A DNA stretch of 22,677 nucleotides from a virus. Position numbers and translations under genes: made by a program. Position 1 is the stretch's first letter. Each line of letters starts with the position of its first letter. The DNA lies in the IMG/VR virus record IMGVR_UViG_3300045912_000461, positions 1 to 22,677 of that record; one strand, given 5' to 3'. The notes beneath the pieces were generated by a model that did not search any database, was not told the origin of the DNA, and saw only the letters and a list, made by a program, of their open reading frames with translations. Of the stretch, positions 621 to 22,677 are shown one piece after another.

Positions 621-706
621 CCTCCTACCTTCCTCCTACCTTCCTCCTACCTTCCTCCTACCTTCCTCCTACCTTCCTCCTACCTTCCTCCTACCTTCCT
701 CCTACC
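621..706. repeat. 11-bp tandem array between convergent genes
   Basis: CCTCCTACCTT is repeated seven times exactly, plus nine bases of an eighth copy, ending seven bases before the terL stop codon. The unit is not a multiple of three and the array lies outside every gene I accept, so it is non-coding. On the minus strand, the terL sense strand, each unit reads AAGGTAGGAGG and contains the Shine-Dalgarno core AGGAGG. On the plus strand each contains CCTCCT, the anti-Shine-Dalgarno core of 16S rRNA. The unit length is close to one helical turn, so each unit faces the same side of the helix. Confidence 0.9.
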
Positions 707-14282: not shown

Positions 14283-14967
14283 GAAGTTTCCCGCGATTCC
14301 GAACCCGGTAGCCGACCTCGAAGCCCACCAGCGGACTCTGCTCGCATTGAAAGAGTCGGTGGAGATGCTGACTGGCCAGCGCGGGAGGCTGCGCGCGGCG
14401 CTACTGCGTGACATACCGGAGCCTATGCCTCCCCCGCCACCTATCCCACCTGACGACTTCAGGCTGGTCGCCGACATCCCGATCACGAGCGTAACGACGG
14501 TGGATGTCGAGTGGACGACCGGCGACTACAGCGCGCTGACCGTCTACGTTCTCGGCGTGTATCCGGCGTCGTCTCCGGGGTCGAACAACCTCGCCGTCCG
14601 GTTCCGGCAGGGCACGTCGTATCTGAGCGGCGCGACGGACTACACACGCCATTGGGCGTATTGGTGGCTCGCAACCGGCGCGTCGAACGAAGATATGGCC
14701 ACGCAGGCGCTGCTCCAACTCAACGGAAACACCGGAGGTGACGACCTGTTCTCTGTCGCGCACTTCCACGTTGGTGGGACAAATATGGAGCCCGGCATGA
14801 TTGCCCATTCCCGGTGGTCTACAAACACACCGAGCGCGCGAGCGTGGGGGTTCTTCGTGTCGTCGCTGCACGCTGAAGGCGAGATCAATGGGCTGCGGTT
14901 CTTCTGGTCGAGCGGCGACAACTTTGCCGCGCGAGGGCGGATCGTCGTCTACGGGGTGCCGAAATGA
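14275..14967 (+). CDS. Virion protein with coiled N-terminus and beta-rich C-terminal domain, 230 residues
   Basis: The start is GTG at 14275, inside the end of the previous gene, with AAGGAG seven bases upstream; upstream codons in this frame belong to no plausible gene. The N-terminus (FPAIPNPVADLEAHQRTLLALKE) is a short helix with heptads, then comes a Pro-rich linker (PEPMPPPPPIPPDD), then about 170 residues of beta-rich sequence with many aromatic residues (HWAYWWLATG, WSTNTPSARAWGFFVSSL). This layout suits a protein anchored by its N-terminus to the tail and carrying a surface-binding domain. No family recognised. Confidence 0.65.
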   Translation: MSEKFPAIPNPVADLEAHQRTLLALKESVEMLTGQRGRLRAALLRDIPEPMPPPPPIPPDDFRLVADIPITSVTTVDVEWTTGDYSALTVYVLGVYPASSPGSNNLAVRFRQGTSYLSGATDYTRHWAYWWLATGASNEDMATQALLQLNGNTGGDDLFSVAHFHVGGTNMEPGMIAHSRWSTNTPSARAWGFFVSSLHAEGEINGLRFFWSSGDNFAARGRIVVYGVPK

Positions 14968-15338
14968 AGCGGCTGGTAGTGCGTGACGGCAAGCAGATCA
15001 TCGAGGACATTCCCGCTGAAGCGCGGCATGTCGTTGTGCCGGAGCCCAAGGTTCCGCCGCCGGAGGATGTCGTCGCCCGCCTCGCGGCGCTGGAAGCGAA
15101 GGTGCAGGGTGTGGAGCGCGAAGTGGCGTATGTGCGCCGGGCGACGCCCGCCGCGCCCACTCCCGAACCTCCCACTCCCGAACCTCCCACTCCCGAACCT
15201 CCCACTCCCGAACCTCCCACTCCCGAACCTCCCACTCCCGAACCTCCCACTCCCGAACCTCCCACTCCCGAACCTCCCACTCCCGAACCTCCCACTCCCG
15301 AACCTCCCAAGGGTCAGCCCACGGGACGCAAACGATGA
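14964..15338 (+). CDS. Coiled-coil protein with ten TPEPP repeats, 124 residues
   Basis: The ATG overlaps the previous stop (ATGA). The N-terminal 60 residues hold two short strands (MKRLVVRDGKQIIEDIP) and a coiled coil (DVVARLAALEAKVQGVEREV). Residues 66-115 are ten exact Thr-Pro-Glu-Pro-Pro units and the protein ends in a basic Lys-Gly-Gln-Pro-Thr-Gly-Arg-Lys-Arg tail. The repeat would form an extended polyproline-type rod or spacer. The coiled coil could let the protein trimerise on the tail. I know of no named family; a structural spacer is inference. Confidence 0.65.
   Translation: MKRLVVRDGKQIIEDIPAEARHVVVPEPKVPPPEDVVARLAALEAKVQGVEREVAYVRRATPAAPTPEPPTPEPPTPEPPTPEPPTPEPPTPEPPTPEPPTPEPPTPEPPTPEPPKGQPTGRKR
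15159..15308 (+). repeat. 15-bp perfect tandem repeat, ten copies
   Basis: ACTCCCGAACCTCCC is repeated ten times without a single base difference, encoding Thr-Pro-Glu-Pro-Pro each time. Identity at silent positions as well as at protein level points to recent expansion by slippage or recombination rather than old selection on the protein alone. Confidence 0.95.
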
Positions 15339-15790
15339 GGCGCGTCGTCGCGAACGCCTATGATGTGGGCGTGTTCGTCTCTCGCATGGCGCGATGCCAC
15401 TTCGACGAGCGGGTGGACCGCACGCTTGGCGTGGTGGACGACTCGTTCGAACCCTCGAATCCGGCCTGGGTGCGCGGTGGGGTGATCTACACGAACTACA
15501 GCGACGCGGCGATCTGGATGCACGTCGCCGGGCGGGGTGAGGCGTGGATCACCAAGGAGATGCTCTGGAAGGCGTTCCACTACCCCTTCGTGCAGTTGGG
15601 GTGCGTCCGCATCTACGGCCTCGTGGAAGCCGCCAACGACCCGGCGCTCCGGTTCGACCTGCGGCTGGGCTTCAGCGTCGTCGCGTCTCTGCCCGAGATG
15701 TTTGCGTCCGGGCCGGGGCTCGTAGTATCCATGCGCCGAGACGAGTGCCGCTGGCTGCGGCTGGCTCCGGCGGAGATGATGGAGGCGTAG
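15335..15790 (+). CDS. GNAT-like acetyltransferase protein, 151 residues
   Basis: The ATG overlaps the previous stop (ATGA). The product resembles GNAT-fold proteins coded in the structural region of many phages: GGVIYTNYSDAAIWMHVAG on the beta4 strand region, WITKEMLWKAFHYPFVQLG as the following helix, VRIYGLVEAANDPALRFDLRLGF, which corresponds to the C-terminal motif B where Asn and Phe shape the acetyl-CoA site, and the ending LVVSMRRDECRWLRL. The usual Q/RxxGxG/A pyrophosphate loop is not obvious, so acetyl-CoA binding may be altered. Substrate unknown. It lies among virion genes, so it could modify a virion or host protein. Confidence 0.65.
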   Translation: MRRVVANAYDVGVFVSRMARCHFDERVDRTLGVVDDSFEPSNPAWVRGGVIYTNYSDAAIWMHVAGRGEAWITKEMLWKAFHYPFVQLGCVRIYGLVEAANDPALRFDLRLGFSVVASLPEMFASGPGLVVSMRRDECRWLRLAPAEMMEA

Positions 15791-16615
15791 ATGGGCGGCA
15801 AGGGCGGAAAGGCACCTCCACCGCCGGACTATACCCCGGTCGCGGCGGCGAACGAGCAGGCGGCGAAGTTGTCGGCCGAGATCGCGCGCGAGCAGTTGAC
15901 GTGGGCGCGCGAGCAGTATGCCATGGATGCGGCGGTGACGCAGCGGTTCATGGACGTAATGCTTCCTGCGATGGTCCGCGAGGACGCCGCCGCTGCCGCC
16001 GACCGCAAGCGATACCAGGAGGTGTTCCAGCCCGTCGAGGACCGGCTGGTGCGCGAGGCGGAAGAGTTCGTCACCCCGCAGCGCATGGAGTTCGAGGCGG
16101 GCCGGGCGCAGGCCGACGTGGCGCAGGCGTTCGACGCGCAGCGCCGCGCGGCGCTCGCGAACCTCGAATCCTACGGGGTGGACCCCTCCACCGCCCGGGC
16201 CGGGGCGCTCGACCGCGCCGCGCGCACCGCGCAGGCCGCCGTTGCCGCCGGTGCCGCGAACCAGACCCGCCAGAACGTGGAGATGACGGGCCGGGCGCTG
16301 CGCGGCGAGGTCATCAACCTCGGGCGCGGCTACCAGAGCCAGATCGCGCAAGCCTACGCCACCTCCCAGAACGCCGGTGGCGGGGCGGTGAACGCCAACC
16401 TCGCCACGACCGCCTCGGGCGCCGGGACCATGGGCACCGGCGTGCAGTGGACCGGGGCGCAGCAGGGTTTCCTCGGGAACTGGGCGGGGGCGCTCGGCGG
16501 GCAGGGGCAGTCCACGGCGCTCGCGATGCAGCAGCAGGGGCAGAAGCAGGCCAGCCAGGGCGCGATGATCGGCGCTGGTATTGGCGCCGTCGCGTCTGTA
16601 GCCGTCGCCATCTGA
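15791..16615 (+). CDS. Internal virion (ejection-type) protein, 274 residues
   Basis: The gene begins directly after the previous stop with GGAGG five bases before the ATG. The product starts MGGKGGKAPPPPDYTPVAA, continues as long Ala/Gln/Arg/Glu-rich helices (residues 20-180, containing LESYGVDPSTARAGALDRAA), then a Gly/Asn/Gln-rich segment, and ends in a glycine-zipper membrane-type helix (GAMIGAGIGAVASVAVAI). Helical proteins with a hydrophobic tail at this place in short-tailed phages are usually packed in the head and ejected to form the channel for DNA. That role is inferred from context and composition. Confidence 0.65.
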   Translation: MGGKGGKAPPPPDYTPVAAANEQAAKLSAEIAREQLTWAREQYAMDAAVTQRFMDVMLPAMVREDAAAAADRKRYQEVFQPVEDRLVREAEEFVTPQRMEFEAGRAQADVAQAFDAQRRAALANLESYGVDPSTARAGALDRAARTAQAAVAAGAANQTRQNVEMTGRALRGEVINLGRGYQSQIAQAYATSQNAGGGAVNANLATTASGAGTMGTGVQWTGAQQGFLGNWAGALGGQGQSTALAMQQQGQKQASQGAMIGAGIGAVASVAVAI

Positions 16616-18054
16616 TGTCGGCGACCGGGCTCGCGCGGATCGACCCCGCCGTTCTTGACCGCCACGAGCGGGTGGCGTTCTCGTTCTCGGGTGGCAAGGA
16701 CTCGACCGCCGTGTGGCACCTGCTCGACGAGGCGGGGCTGCTCGACCGGGTGACGACCTACCACATGGACACGGGCGACCTGCTGCCCGAGATGCGCGCC
16801 GTGGTGGCACACTACGAAGCCCGGACTCCGCGATTCGTCCGAATCACCGGGCGGGTGAACGAGTGGATCGCCGAGCACGGCCTGCCGACCGACCTGCTGC
16901 CGCACACCGCGCATCCGGTGGCGCACCTCATGGGCGAGGCGCGCGTGCCGCTCGTGAGCCGCTACGATTGCTGCTACGCCAACCTGATGCTGCCGACCTT
17001 CAGGCGCATCATCGAGGACGGGAACACCCTGTTGATTCGGGGCACCAAGCGCGTGGACATGCGTCGCCTGCCGTGTGGCACCGGCGAGCATGTGGATGGG
17101 GTGGAAATCTACTACCCCATCGAGGACGCGACCAACGACGAGGTGTTCGCCTACCTGCGCGCCGTCGGCGCAATGGTGTCGCCCATCTACCAGCACGTCA
17201 CCAACTCGCCAGAGTGCGCCACCTGCTCGGCGTGGTGGGGCGAGAAGCGCGCGTCCTACCTGAAGTCGCGACACCCGCTGCTCTATGCGCGCTACAAGGC
17301 GCGCATGGACGCCGTGGCCGCTGAGATCGAACCCATGCTCGGCAACCTTGTCGCGGAGGCGAATGAACCCCTCGATGCGCCTGCGCTGCCCATGGCGCTG
17401 ATGGAGCAGGCCACCGACGCCATGCCGGACGGGCTGCGCGTGCTTCAGGCGAACCGGCTCGGCAAGGGCGACATCGCGCATGTGCGCGAACTCATGCGCT
17501 ACATGCCGATCCCCAAGGGCGCCACGGTGCTCGATGCCGGATGCGGACTCGGGGAGGTGTCACGAATCCTCGGCGCGCACCGGCTCGACCTGTCGTTCAT
17601 CATGGTGAACAAGTCGGAGGCTCAACTGGCGCATGCGCCATCAAACCACCGCTTCCATCGCCTCGTGGGCGACTTCCACAACCTCCCGCTGCCGGATGCG
17701 AGCGTGGACTTCACGATGTTCTGTTACGCGCTCTGCCACGCTGATCACATGGTGGCGCTTCGCGAGGCGGCGCGTGTGACCCGTCCTGGCGGGCAGTTGT
17801 TCGTCTACGACTACGAGCGCGTCGGCGGCGACAACGCGCTCATGGAGCAGCACATGTTCGCCCGGGCGTATCGGCTCGACGAGATCGCCGCGCTCGCCTC
17901 GCGCGCCGGATGGGCGCTCACGTTCGAGGCGTTCCCGGCGGGCTACGACCTGTTCGCCGACATCTTCAGCGGGGATGAAGAGTTGCAGGCGCTGCACAGG
18001 GCTATTTTCTCCGACCTGCGCCCGGTGGTATGGAGGTTCGAGCGCCGCCCGTGA
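16615..18054 (+). CDS. PP-loop (PAPS reductase-like) domain fused to SAM-dependent methyltransferase
   Basis: The product is 479 residues with two enzyme domains. The N-terminal domain (about 1-240) has the PP-loop SGGKDS at residues 25-30, RGTKRVDMRRLP, and YYPIEDATNDEVFAYLR, which together mark the PAPS reductase/DndC-like ATP-pyrophosphatase superfamily. Cys119-Cys120 and Cys201/Cys204 (CATC) could hold a metal or iron-sulphur cluster. The C-terminal domain (about 290-479) is a class I methyltransferase with motif I VLDAGCGLGEVS (305-316), LPLPDASVDFTMFCYALCHAD and RVTRPGGQLFVYDYE. The ATG shares bases with the previous stop (TGATG) and lacks a Shine-Dalgarno site, so it is translationally coupled. 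It sits between two internal-protein genes. Substrate unknown. Confidence 0.85.
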   Translation: MSATGLARIDPAVLDRHERVAFSFSGGKDSTAVWHLLDEAGLLDRVTTYHMDTGDLLPEMRAVVAHYEARTPRFVRITGRVNEWIAEHGLPTDLLPHTAHPVAHLMGEARVPLVSRYDCCYANLMLPTFRRIIEDGNTLLIRGTKRVDMRRLPCGTGEHVDGVEIYYPIEDATNDEVFAYLRAVGAMVSPIYQHVTNSPECATCSAWWGEKRASYLKSRHPLLYARYKARMDAVAAEIEPMLGNLVAEANEPLDAPALPMALMEQATDAMPDGLRVLQANRLGKGDIAHVRELMRYMPIPKGATVLDAGCGLGEVSRILGAHRLDLSFIMVNKSEAQLAHAPSNHRFHRLVGDFHNLPLPDASVDFTMFCYALCHADHMVALREAARVTRPGGQLFVYDYERVGGDNALMEQHMFARAYRLDEIAALASRAGWALTFEAFPAGYDLFADIFSGDEELQALHRAIFSDLRPVVWRFERRP

Positions 18055-18081: not shown

Positions 18082-20196
18082 ATGGCGTCCTTCGGTGAGG
18101 CGCTGGTTTCAGCATTCAATAGCACCTACAGCACGGTCATGCGGGGCATGATGCAGGCCGAGGCCATCGCCGAGTCCCGCGACCAGCGTGCCCGCCAGCA
18201 GCGTCACCGCGACCAGACGGCGGCCAATATGCGCGACGCCGGGCTTCTCCCCGGCGGCCAGGGCGGCGAGAGCACCCCCGCCGTTGCCCCGGTGCAGGTG
18301 CCGACCGGCGACGCTGGTGGCGCGGCAGGTGGCGCGGCAGGTGGCGCGGCAGGTGCCGCTGCTGCGGGTGCGGGCCAGAACTTCGCCACCGGCGTCCAGC
18401 AGGGCCAGCAGACCGGGCAGCAGGTGGGCAACGCGCTCGGCGCCGTCGGGCGGGCGGCATTCGGTGCTCCCGGCGGCGAGACGGGCGGGGAGCAGGGGGC
18501 AGCACCGCCGCCCGAGGCTCCGGCCATGGCGCCTCCGGCCGAGACTCCGGTCGCCCCTCCGAGTCCGGCGCCCGCGCAGGGTGCGGTGCAGGGCACCACG
18601 CCTACCGCGCCTGCGCCGCAGCAGCCTGTCATCTCCCCGCAGGCGTTCCAGGAGGCTGTGCGGCGTGTGGGGAACGACCCCGTGAACGCGATGATCGTCG
18701 CGCCCTTCGCTGTGTCGCCGCAGCAGCGCCAGCCGGGCGGGACCGGAGAGCGGGAAGCGGCGGCGCGGGCGCCGCAGTTGCTGCGCGAGATCGCTGCTAC
18801 GCGCCCGGAAGGGCAGACGGGACCAATCGTTCGGGCGGACTGGGATCGGTTCTTCCGGAACGAGATGATCAACATCATGCAGAACCTCAGTCCGCAGGAG
18901 CAGGCGGTGGCGTTCGCCAACATCGAGCGCATCCGCACCGCCGGTATGCGGCAGGCGGCCGGGCTCGCCGTGGCGGCGGCGCAGGCGGGCGACGCCGAGG
19001 GCGCTGCCCGCGCGCTCGGGGTGATGTCGCAGTTCGTCCCGGATGGCTACCGCACCAGTTTCCGCGTGCAGGGCAACGGACTCGTGATGACGCGCGCTCG
19101 CGAGGACGGGCGGGGCGAAGCGACGACGGTGCCGGTGACGCTGGATCAGGTTCAGCGATACGCCGTGTCCGCGCTCGATCCGCTGTGGAGCCTCAACCAC
19201 TTCCTCAACGTGGAGAAGCACAACGAGCAGGTGCGCCACAATCGCGTCAATGAGGGGCTGCGCGCGGGTGAGTTGGCGGTGCGGAGGGCGGAACGCGCCG
19301 AACGTGAAGATGAGCGCCGTCGCTTGCAGGAAACCGACGCCAATGTAGCCAGAGCGCAGCGGCAGTTGGAGCGCGCACAGGCGGAATACGACGCGCTTAG
19401 CCGCGCGGAAACGCGCGAGCCGGGTGCGCTCGCTCAGGCGCGGCTTGCTGTCGAGCGCGCGAGTGATGCGTATGACACTGCGATTGAGCGCGGTGGACTA
19501 CGTGGGCTTCAGGTCGCTGGCGGCCTCGACGAGCGCGCTGCTGCACGGCGGGCGCAGCGCGAACGGGCTGAAGGTCGCGGACCGCTCACGGAACAGGAAT
19601 ACACCAGGATCGACCGAGTCAGCGAGGCCCTACCGAACGACGATGCCGGAAACTGGGCGCGCGCCAACCTCCCGGAAGCCGTCATGCGGAACCGTGGGGA
19701 GGATTTCGGCACTCTGGGCAACGCGCTGATGAACTTCTTCCGCAATGCGCCCCCGCACCTTCGCGAGAATCCACCTTCGACGATCACGTATCAGGGTCGG
19801 ACAATCTCGCTTCGTCCGCCGCGACGCGAGGCTCCGGAAACTCCGGCTCCCGCGCGTGTTGCGCCTACCGACGGCCCGGCGTCGATGGGCGGCGCCCGCA
19901 CGCCTCCGGCGCGCAGCGGCAGCATCCTGGGCGCCGTGCAAAGTTCCATCGCGACACAGGTTCCTGTGCCTCCGCCCACGCGCGAAGAGCGGCAGGCGCT
20001 TCAGGAGCAGCGGCAGCAGCAGCAGATAGAGCGGCAGCGGCAGGCGCGCTCGGCGTATGAATCCGAACTGATCGCTGTGCTTCAGCGGCACAACGTGCAG
20101 CGTGTTGAGCAGTTGCCGCCGCGAGAGCGAAATAGGCTGTTCCAACTCCATTACCGCGCGCTTACCCCCGAAGAACGTCGGTTCATGGCGAGGTAA
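18082..20196 (+). CDS. Internal virion (ejection-type) protein, 704 residues
   Basis: The N-terminus is helical (FGEALVSAFNSTYSTVMRGM). A Gly/Ala/Pro/Gln-rich disordered stretch follows (about residues 55-190, including three Gly-Gly-Ala-Ala units), then a folded helical region (VISPQAFQEAVRRVGNDPVN to FVPDGYRTSF), a long charged coiled coil (about 395-470, rich in Arg/Glu/Ala) and a C-terminal helical end (LPPRERNRLFQLHYRALTPEERRF). No enzyme motif is visible. Size, helical content and position before another giant protein match podovirus core or ejection proteins. A purine-rich GGGGGTAGAG precedes the ATG. Confidence 0.65.
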   Translation: MASFGEALVSAFNSTYSTVMRGMMQAEAIAESRDQRARQQRHRDQTAANMRDAGLLPGGQGGESTPAVAPVQVPTGDAGGAAGGAAGGAAGAAAAGAGQNFATGVQQGQQTGQQVGNALGAVGRAAFGAPGGETGGEQGAAPPPEAPAMAPPAETPVAPPSPAPAQGAVQGTTPTAPAPQQPVISPQAFQEAVRRVGNDPVNAMIVAPFAVSPQQRQPGGTGEREAAARAPQLLREIAATRPEGQTGPIVRADWDRFFRNEMINIMQNLSPQEQAVAFANIERIRTAGMRQAAGLAVAAAQAGDAEGAARALGVMSQFVPDGYRTSFRVQGNGLVMTRAREDGRGEATTVPVTLDQVQRYAVSALDPLWSLNHFLNVEKHNEQVRHNRVNEGLRAGELAVRRAERAEREDERRRLQETDANVARAQRQLERAQAEYDALSRAETREPGALAQARLAVERASDAYDTAIERGGLRGLQVAGGLDERAAARRAQRERAEGRGPLTEQEYTRIDRVSEALPNDDAGNWARANLPEAVMRNRGEDFGTLGNALMNFFRNAPPHLRENPPSTITYQGRTISLRPPRREAPETPAPARVAPTDGPASMGGARTPPARSGSILGAVQSSIATQVPVPPPTREERQALQEQRQQQQIERQRQARSAYESELIAVLQRHNVQRVEQLPPRERNRLFQLHYRALTPEERRFMAR
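18316..18351 (+). repeat. 12-bp tandem repeat encoding Gly-Gly-Ala-Ala
   Basis: GGTGGCGCGGCA occurs three times exactly with a short partial copy after it. It is in frame inside the disordered part of the 704-residue internal protein. Unlike most arrays in this window it is purine-rich on the coding strand. Confidence 0.8.
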
Positions 20197-20198
20197 GG

Positions 20199-22677
20199 AT
20201 GTCCGACTCGAACTACGATCCTGAGGCGGATACCTACAACGTCCCGTCGCCGACTGCGCCGGGCGCCGGTCGGCGCACGGCGGTTGCTGACCCGAACTAC
20301 GACCCCGAGACAGACACATACCACGTTCCTAGTGCTCCAAGCGGTGGGCGGTCCATTCTTGGCGACATCGCGCGCGGGTTTGGTTCCAGCGCGGTCGGCA
20401 CGGTGGCGGCTGGCGTCGGCGCCGCCGAGTATGCGTTCGGCTCGGGCGGGCGACTCACGGAGTGGCGCGAGTCGCTCTCGCGCCTGTCCGACAGCATCGC
20501 CGAGGGCATGTCGCCCGAGATGCGCCGCGCGCTCGCGCGCGAGTTTATCCCCGGCGGCGAGGGCGAGAGCGCGTGGTCCAGTTTCGGCAACTTCATCGGC
20601 TCCGCCGCCGCGCAAATCGTCGGCACATCGGGTTCGCTGGTCGCGGCGCTCCCCGCCATTCTCGGTGCCGCGCTCGCCGGTCCCTACGCGGGTCCGGTCG
20701 CGGTTGGTATCGCGGGCGCCACCGGCACGGCGCTCGGCGCGGGCACGGTGTGGAACGAGGCTGCCGAACACTTCAGCGGGCTGTCCGAGGAACAGCGGCG
20801 GCGCAACCCGACCTATGCGCGCCTGCGCGACGAAGGTGTGGATGTCGCGTCCGCCATTAACGAGACGGTGCGCGAGGCTGCTTCAGGCGCGGTGGAACTG
20901 GCTGGCGTGGGATCGGGCGCGATCAACGCCTTCACCGGCGGCTTCCTTGCCCGGCTCGGCACCGGGCGGCTTGGCGGCATCCGTCGCGGCGCCGTCGAGG
21001 GCCTCCGCACCGAGGGCACGACCGAGTTTTTCGAGGAAGGGCTTCAGACCGATCAGGGCCAGCGGGTTCGCGAGCGGCTGACCGGCGAGCCCTACAGCCT
21101 GCGCGAGACGGCCGAGGGCGCGGTGCGCGGGGCCATCGCCGGTGGTGGGCTCGGTGCCGGTATGGGTGCCGTCGGCGGGGTGTTCTCCCGACGCGCGGGT
21201 GGCGCCGAGCGGGATGAGCGCGAGCCGCCGCCGGATGGTGCTCCGGGCGCTCCGGGCGCTCCGGGTGGGTCGCCGCTGCTTCCCGGCCCGACCACCGACT
21301 TCACCGTGGACCCGCAGGGGGGCATTACTCCGGGCGGCCCCACGGTCAACAACGCCCCCGTCACACCGCCGTCGCCGCCGCGCCCCGGCGCGGTGTCCGA
21401 CACCGTATCCCGGCTGACGCCTGACCCGCGCGAGGCGCAAGACCCGGGCATCCTCGCCGCCCTCGAATCCGCAGGCGCGGGCGAGCGCATCCTACAGTCG
21501 TTCCAGGATCGGCCGCCGGGGACGGTCGAGGCGCTTGCCGCCGAAGGTGCGCTCGCGAACATCACCAGCCGTGATCCGTCCATCACCGCCGCGTTCGACG
21601 AACAGTTCAACCGCAGCGCCGCCCGCACGCTCGGCGCGGAACCGGAGGGCAGGTTCGACTTCAACGCACCTACTCCCCCCACGCCTGACCCGCTCGGTGC
21701 CGTCCAGCGGTCGCAGCCCCCGGCGGCGCAGAGCGCCCCCGCGCCGCAGGCGCAGAGTGCCCCCGCCACGCCCGAGCAGTCCGCGCCGAACCTCATCGCC
21801 GCGTTGCGGCAGACAAATCCGAAGCAGGCGCAGGCGGTCGAGCAGGCTGCCGCGCTCGCGCAGGCCGCCATCGCCGACTCGCGGCTTCCCCAGAATCCAA
21901 CGGTGCAGCAGTTGCGGCAGGTGCTCGGCCTGCCCGCCGCCATCGCGGCGCTCACGCGCACCGTGCTTACCACAGAACCCGCACCGGCCGTGGCTGCTAC
22001 CGGGTCCGCCCCGGCGGCGGCTGGCGCGGTAGGGGGGACGCCTGCCCAGACCGACCCCCTGACGCAGCCCGGCGGGGCTGCGCCGCAGTCGTCCCCACGA
22101 CTCGAAGCGCCGCCCGAGTCCGCCCCACTCGTGCCGCAGACCGGCGAGCCTGCGTCGGCACCGGAGACACCGGTGCAGGGGGAACTTCCGCTCCCTCCCG
22201 TGGACCCGGCAGCGCCGAAGGGCGTGCAGACGGCGCAGGAGCGGCGCGCTCGCGCCAAGCGCAAGAATCAGGCGCCCAAGGACGAGCGCGCTGCCGAGAA
22301 ACGCGCGCAGGCCGAGGAACAGAAGCCCGAGACGCCGGACATCACGCCCCGCACCGAGGCGGCGGCAGCGGCGCCCGAAACGCCCAAGGCACCGGCCGCA
22401 CGGCGCGCGGCGGCAAGAGGCGATGACGCCGAACTCGCCCGGTATGGGCTGTCCCGGAACGCCACCGTGGCACGGGCTCCCGCCGCCCCCGCCGCCCCCG
22501 CCGCCCCCGCCGCCCCCGCCGCCCCCGCCGCCCCCGCCGCCCCCGCCGCCCCCGCCGCCCCGGCGGTGCCCGCCGTCCAGGAGGGCAAAAAGACCGCCGA
22601 GGTCCGCCGCATCCTGCGGAACGACCTGCTCCCGCGCGCCCGGCGCGTGGTGGAGCGCGTGCTTGGCGAGCGCGCGA
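20199..22677 (+). CDS. Very large ejection-type or polyvalent protein, 3' partial
   Basis: The frame opens at ATG 20199, with GAGGTAAGG just upstream overlapping the previous stop, and stays open for 826 codons to the right edge. The N-terminus carries the motif NYDPExDTYxVPS twice (residues 5-17 and 33-45). A helical region and Gly/Ala-rich hydrophobic segments follow (about 150-190, with LVAALPAILGAALAGPYAGP; and about 307-330, with GAIAGGGLGAGMGAVGG) that could enter a membrane. A helix-rich segment (IRRGAVEGLRTEGTTEFFEE) lies between them. From about residue 340 the chain is mainly Pro/Ala/Gln-rich linker, with an (AAP)9 run. Enzyme domains, if any, would lie beyond the window. It is probably packed in the head and delivered into the cell. 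Confidence 0.7.
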   Translation, partial: MSDSNYDPEADTYNVPSPTAPGAGRRTAVADPNYDPETDTYHVPSAPSGGRSILGDIARGFGSSAVGTVAAGVGAAEYAFGSGGRLTEWRESLSRLSDSIAEGMSPEMRRALAREFIPGGEGESAWSSFGNFIGSAAAQIVGTSGSLVAALPAILGAALAGPYAGPVAVGIAGATGTALGAGTVWNEAAEHFSGLSEEQRRRNPTYARLRDEGVDVASAINETVREAASGAVELAGVGSGAINAFTGGFLARLGTGRLGGIRRGAVEGLRTEGTTEFFEEGLQTDQGQRVRERLTGEPYSLRETAEGAVRGAIAGGGLGAGMGAVGGVFSRRAGGAERDEREPPPDGAPGAPGAPGGSPLLPGPTTDFTVDPQGGITPGGPTVNNAPVTPPSPPRPGAVSDTVSRLTPDPREAQDPGILAALESAGAGERILQSFQDRPPGTVEALAAEGALANITSRDPSITAAFDEQFNRSAARTLGAEPEGRFDFNAPTPPTPDPLGAVQRSQPPAAQSAPAPQAQSAPATPEQSAPNLIAALRQTNPKQAQAVEQAAALAQAAIADSRLPQNPTVQQLRQVLGLPAAIAALTRTVLTTEPAPAVAATGSAPAAAGAVGGTPAQTDPLTQPGGAAPQSSPRLEAPPESAPLVPQTGEPASAPETPVQGELPLPPVDPAAPKGVQTAQERRARAKRKNQAPKDERAAEKRAQAEEQKPETPDITPRTEAAAAAPETPKAPAARRAAARGDDAELARYGLSRNATVARAPAAPAAPAAPAAPAAPAAPAAPAAPAAPAVPAVQEGKKTAEVRRILRNDLLPRARRVVERVLGERA
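22482..22562 (+). repeat. 9-bp tandem repeat encoding Ala-Ala-Pro
   Basis: GCCGCCCCC occurs eight times exactly, followed by a ninth copy with a final G. Every copy is in frame and reads Ala-Ala-Pro, forming a stiff linker in the last gene. The strand is pure C/G with one strongly C-rich side, so it is prone to slippage and to assembly error. Confidence 0.92.

Follow-up and report, generated by a model that had tools for sequence, protein, structure and literature searches.

The window analysed here is the whole of a 22,677-nucleotide (22.7-kb) IMG/VR viral fragment, whose genes include those for a portal-like head-tail adaptor, major head, tail-fibre, endolysin and internal-virion proteins. 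Within this late virion block, where a sequence-only reading had rightly placed it, lies one gene that joins a PP-loop domain (P) to a class I methyltransferase domain (M). The gene, its neighbours and its internal features are as follows:

15335-15790, plus strand: GNAT-family N-acyltransferase (PHROG_4470), a frequent neighbour of P in the neighbourhood scan
15791-16615, plus strand: virion protein (PHROG_8003, E 6.5e-65), with a one-base TGATG overlap with the fusion gene
16615-18054, plus strand: P-M fusion gene, 479 aa, PP-loop domain followed by methyltransferase
16615-17358, plus strand: P domain, residues 1-248, PP-loop domain of the PAPS-reductase superfamily (PF01507, PHROG_424; AlphaFold2 pLDDT 96.5)
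16687-16704, plus strand: PP-loop SGGKDS, residues 25-30 (sequence motif)
16969-16974, plus strand: C119-C120, first half of a putative four-cysteine site of APS-reductase type (62/62; aligns with the APS reductase CC)
17215-17226, plus strand: C201-x-x-C204, second half of the putative four-cysteine site (62/62; aligns with the APS reductase CxxC)
17359-17388, plus strand: short P/M linker, about residues 249-258, between the end of P homology and the start of the M profile match
17389-18048, plus strand: M domain, class I SAM-dependent methyltransferase (PF08241; phage M family profile 3e-91)
17533-17553, plus strand: SAM-binding motif I, DAGCGLG, residues 307-313 (sequence motif)
18082-20196, plus strand: 704-aa open reading frame 3' of the fusion gene, assigned to the ejection-protein position by its placement

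Translation of positions 16615-18054 yields a single uninterrupted frame of 479 aa beginning at the ATG at 16615. The Pfam PAPS_reduct model matches residues 20-202 with 31.3 bits (cutoff 22.5) and Methyltransf_11 (PF08241) matches residues 306-397 with 59.8 bits (cutoff 21.2); as both scores exceed the curated cutoffs, the P and M domains are recognised far above chance. Homology to P stops near residue 248, and the match to the M profile begins at position 17389. The union of a PP-loop domain and a class I methyltransferase in one frame, proposed from the letters alone, is therefore confirmed as one gene with two domains.

The predicted TGATG coupling to the upstream gene was found as an overlap at that position. 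Both flanking genes had also been taken to encode internal proteins. For the upstream gene this holds, since it belongs to PHROG_8003 and its counterpart in phage JC1 was detected in virions by mass spectrometry (PMC9144972), but the downstream frame (18082-20196) has no PHROG or Pfam family match and is so placed by position only. The JC1 GNAT and P genes are described in the same study only as moron genes (PMC9144972). An identical gene order is found in Burkholderia phage BcepIL02 (GNAT gp65, virion protein gp66, stand-alone P gp67), in an IMG/VR contig (L005) whose P is 55% identical to that of the window, and in a Chromobacterium plasmid. Given that the slot is shared with these three, P is an ordinary occupant of it, and it is the presence of M that calls for explanation. 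The possibility that the GNAT next door modifies DNA in the manner of Mom was considered and rejected, hhalign against Mu Mom giving a probability of 1.3% with a single Mom sequence. The GNAT gene at 15335-15790 also occurs in phages that were not screened for P.

Deduplication of P+M pairs at P sequences at least 95% alike left 40 distinct pairs. Half of these (20/40), all from phage or prophage sequences, are fused in the order M-P, opposite to that of the window; an example is the 420-aa protein of a Comamonas phage-plasmid (L010, 11452-12714), in which M lies ahead of P. Neighbouring separate genes are ordered M-P in 10 pairs and P-M in 7, while two pairs were binned by script as further apart, one of which (L126) actually comprises neighbours and the other (L145) is separated by about 4 kb. 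Separate neighbouring P and M genes in either order thereby amount to about 18 distinct pairs, and the window is the sole fused P-M (1/40). The earlier impression that such a fusion was not familiar from phages is overturned by these 20 distinct M-P fusions and the neighbouring gene pairs. Indeed, the PHROG_424 profile, which the window protein matches with E 2.2e-32, covers M roughly from position 10 to 93 and P roughly from 150 to 375; since it spans both domains, the fusion already exists within that family, though unnamed, and the family name ("phosphoadenosine phosphosulfate reductase") is silent on its N-terminal M domain. PHROG_424, to which BcepIL02 gp67 and JC1 gp65 belong, represents the same PP-loop family in the same slot after the GNAT and virion protein genes; those of its members met with in this analysis consist of P by itself or of M-P, whereas the window is P-M. 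Our literature searches found no papers describing a P/M fusion.

Scans seeded with M were made irrespective of P and so provide an independent sample of M loci. P was nearly always present on the same record, and most M loci were fused to or beside it. Where P was absent from the flanks of M, the whole record was searched; P was not found on the whole record for short contigs (<13 kb) and for two records carrying the most divergent M. M also occurs without P in Roseomonas plasmids. Conversely, M was present at 13/80 viral loci in the P-seeded scan, and many phages, BcepIL02 among them, carry P without M, showing that M is not obligatory for P. A single-protein scan seeded with the methyltransferase half alone gave no matches, a first methyltransferase alignment contained no usable motif, and the combined full-length alignment, in which MAFFT placed M rows on the P half, was excluded from folding.

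These counts bear on whether the association reflects physical linkage only, with gene rearrangement in a densely packed late operon bringing independent enzymes together time and again. P often occurs without M, the location of M varies, and the co-divergence of P and M does not rise above background: a Mantel r of 0.855 was obtained across the 40 pairs, but the P-M distance correlation of 0.92 compares with 0.94 for P and the virion protein, taken as a control. Because the control is equally high, co-divergence reflects the shared gene block and not a specific coupling, and it was dropped as proof of the latter. On the other hand, the occurrence of both fusion orders and of four arrangements, with motifs nearly always kept, exceeds what neutral shuffling would be expected to produce, and we regard linkage alone as unlikely. 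Every possible P/M arrangement is represented, with catalytic residues kept in nearly all, and the coupling of P and M, as judged from repeated fusion of their sequences, is well supported.

A coupled module might alternatively modify a protein, for example the upstream ejection protein, in the manner of the QueC-like Cap9 of type IV CBASS, for which nucleobase-protein conjugation is a published precedent (PMC11996544). P directly adjoins the virion protein gene in many phages, and Cap9 was among the matches of a PDB profile search. However, the Cap9 match is weak and partial (E 2.4e-7) and the gene order may reflect operon synteny only, leaving protein modification a decidedly unlikely explanation.

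The identity of P was examined from its fold and conserved residues. An AlphaFold2 model built on an alignment of 62 sequences reached a pLDDT of 96.5, and its best Foldseek matches were APS reductase (2goy), TtuA, CysH (6vpu) and NcsA. The sequence-only reading was right to single out four cysteines as candidate cluster ligands: C119, C120, C201 and C204 are invariant in 62/62 phage relatives, are the sole well-conserved cysteines among them, and coincide exactly with the CC and CxxC of APS reductases from two proteobacterial genomes in a profile alignment. The PP-loop, SGG[KR]DS, is likewise present in 62/62, a count partly biased by the inclusion of this motif in the scan that collected the sequences; among P proteins reached only via M, SGGxDS, CC and CxxC occur in 23/23.

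The annotation carried by BcepIL02, JC1 and PHROG_424 would make P a sulphonucleotide (PAPS/APS) reductase that boosts host sulphur assimilation, with M incidental. The assimilatory APS reductases (CysH type, CC...CxxC [4Fe-4S]) do share with P both the fold and all four cluster cysteines. They differ in two respects, P having the intact SGGKDS loop of ATP users where the aligned APS reductase has a degenerate SSLGAED, and lacking the catalytic tail ECG(L/I)H in all 62 sequences (ECGLH in the reductases). P also falls short of the curated sulphonucleotide reductase cutoffs, and a reductase role is accordingly considered improbable. Equally improbable is DNA phosphorothioation of the DndC/SspD type protecting phage DNA, to which M would add a second protective mark. 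An intact PP-loop ATP pyrophosphatase and an Fe-S-type site are common to P and DndC/SspD/BrxP, and relatives of P give weak SspD/BrxP profile matches. Nevertheless, P scores 14.6 bits against the NCBIfam DndC model TIGR03183 (cutoff 290.4), the DndC-specific cysteine dyad was not found in the 62 P sequences, DndD was detected in 0/20 large contigs of relatives, and M lacks a DNA-methyltransferase motif IV. DndC has only three cysteines in common with APS reductase, plus a dyad of its own (PMC12193691, PMC10853773), whereas P has the CC pair and, in the 20 large contigs, no DndD partner. The original assignment to a PAPS-reductase/DndC type thus stands for the PAPS-reductase superfamily and fails for DndC. 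With an intact ATP-type loop and without the catalytic cysteine tail, P is neither a PAPS reductase nor a DndC by the tests made; on its sequence it is an ATP-type PP-loop protein with a putative APS-reductase-type metal site. Among its best fold matches, the [4Fe-4S] tRNA thiolases TtuA and NcsA combine a PP-loop ATPase with an Fe-S site, as is predicted for P. These thiolases hold their cluster with three cysteines, leaving one iron free, in contrast to the four conserved cysteines of the phage P family.

For M, the model of a fused homologue (L047; pLDDT 88) gave RebM, AtmM, SpnF and TleD as best PDB matches, all small-molecule methyltransferases or relatives of these. RebM, AtmM, TleD and MitM are the closest solved relatives of M in fold and sequence, yet they are natural-product enzymes about 20% identical to it, and none is known to have a PP-loop partner. 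Motif I (GxGxG) is kept in 39/40 distinct M sequences, and an N-x-x-x-x-Q element is constant in the family. The PP-loop and SAM-binding residues, whose loss among relatives would have spoken against the first reading, are thus kept in nearly all. The exception in motif I is the Comamonas fusion L010, where the SAM-binding GxGxG is gone from M while P is intact. The DNA-methyltransferase motif IV, sought as (D/N/S)PP(Y/F/W) or PCQ, is absent from the window sequence, and among M relatives the former occurs in 1/36 and the latter in 0/36. From both model and sequence, M resembles small-molecule methyltransferases. Of the two-step chemistry first suggested, the coupling of two steps gains support through repeated fusion and linkage, but direct methylation of DNA by M is not favoured, in view of the missing motif IV and the small-molecule methyltransferase folds.

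Taken together, our best reading is that podovirus-like phages carry, among their genes for ejection proteins, an accessory late module that would activate its target with ATP, probably transferring sulphur to it, and would then methylate it; that the gene encodes such a two-step modification enzyme is somewhat favoured. For substrate and chemistry we infer the following scheme. P would bind a [4Fe-4S] cluster and spend ATP (yielding AMP plus PPi) to adenylate a substrate oxygen, which would most likely be exchanged for sulphur supplied by the host, and M would next methylate the product or a nearby group. The host is the most likely sulphur donor because cysteine desulfurase, sought in that capacity, was detected in 0/20 large phage contigs. 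P and M would share one substrate, and their action on it may be why selection repeatedly unites them; that they act in sequence is likely. Thiolation as the P step has a precedent in the PP-loop plus Fe-S chemistry of DndC and TtuA (PMC12193691, PMC7138817), but is weakened by a four-cysteine cluster without a free iron and by the lack of a conserved relay cysteine, so that adenylation without sulphur is possible; we hold thiolation to be plausible at slightly less than even chances. The chances that the substrate is a nucleic acid or nucleotide are evenly balanced. A nucleoside or nucleotide, a tRNA or a small metabolite is more likely than duplex DNA, the methylation of which is the least favoured option. 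Counting against this two-step reading are the frequent occurrence of P without M, the background level of co-divergence, the loss of motif I in L010 and the absence of a cysteine desulfurase from the 20 large contigs.

Phage "PAPS reductase" genes are usually read as helpers of sulphur metabolism. The ATP-type loop, the missing reductase tail, the recurrent coupling to M and the fixed place beside ejection proteins indicate that this branch is mis-named, and that its members probably carry out an ATP-driven modification and then methylation. BcepIL02 and JC1 are among the isolated phages that carry the gene to which this prediction applies. With the window, both fusion orders of the two enzymes are represented. 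More speculatively, M and P may represent an unrecognised modification system of podovirus-like phages of Alpha- and Betaproteobacteria, fusible either way round. Late in infection it would yield a nucleoside or virion protein of a new kind, bearing both thiolation and methylation or some other double modification; to this possibility we give a low probability.

The origin of the P-M order was addressed with a tree of 63 P domains. On it the fused M-P state requires five changes, at least two of them forced by well-supported branches, and P without M is scattered throughout, a pattern that reflects repeated gain, loss, movement and fusion of M. The window falls within a 12-row P clade (98*) composed mostly of adjacent, separate M-P genes, and a clade-specific scan returned no second P-M fusion among the matches listed, from which near copies of the window record may have been missing. 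It had been asked whether homologues are split at the domain junction; the nearest relatives are indeed separate genes, but others are fused. In a Comamonadaceae genome (L220, 1285-2877), the M and P coding sequences share a reading frame that is interrupted by a single in-frame TGA at the junction. An error of sequencing or assembly joining two neighbouring genes would accord with the separate genes of close relatives and with a frame +2 TGA at 17364 and a frame-0 ATG at 17392, as in a split pair, but it requires an indel within a stretch of roughly 40 bases across which the frame is continuous and GC3 remains high on either side without a break, making it very improbable. The window fusion, as placed by the P sequences, is thus best described as a separate event in reverse order: fusion of the P and M families is not new, and only the P-M order is unique to the window among the sequences found.

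Several further observations were made. An M gene with 46.8% identity to that of the window, and close in score to the Roseomonas plasmid M, lies on a record labelled as a Bacillus safensis plasmid (L006, 4509-5300); the species named in this label may be mistaken. The central part of many methanogen proteins (L097-L123), each about 880 aa long, is distantly related to P. Directly upstream of the GNAT gene, the open reading frame at 14964-15338 includes ten perfect copies of a 15-bp, PTPEP-encoding repeat (15156-15309). Perfect short tandem arrays are also found at window positions 621-706 (11 bp x 7.8) and 22479-22561 (9 bp x 9.2), and may give rise to length differences between isolates.
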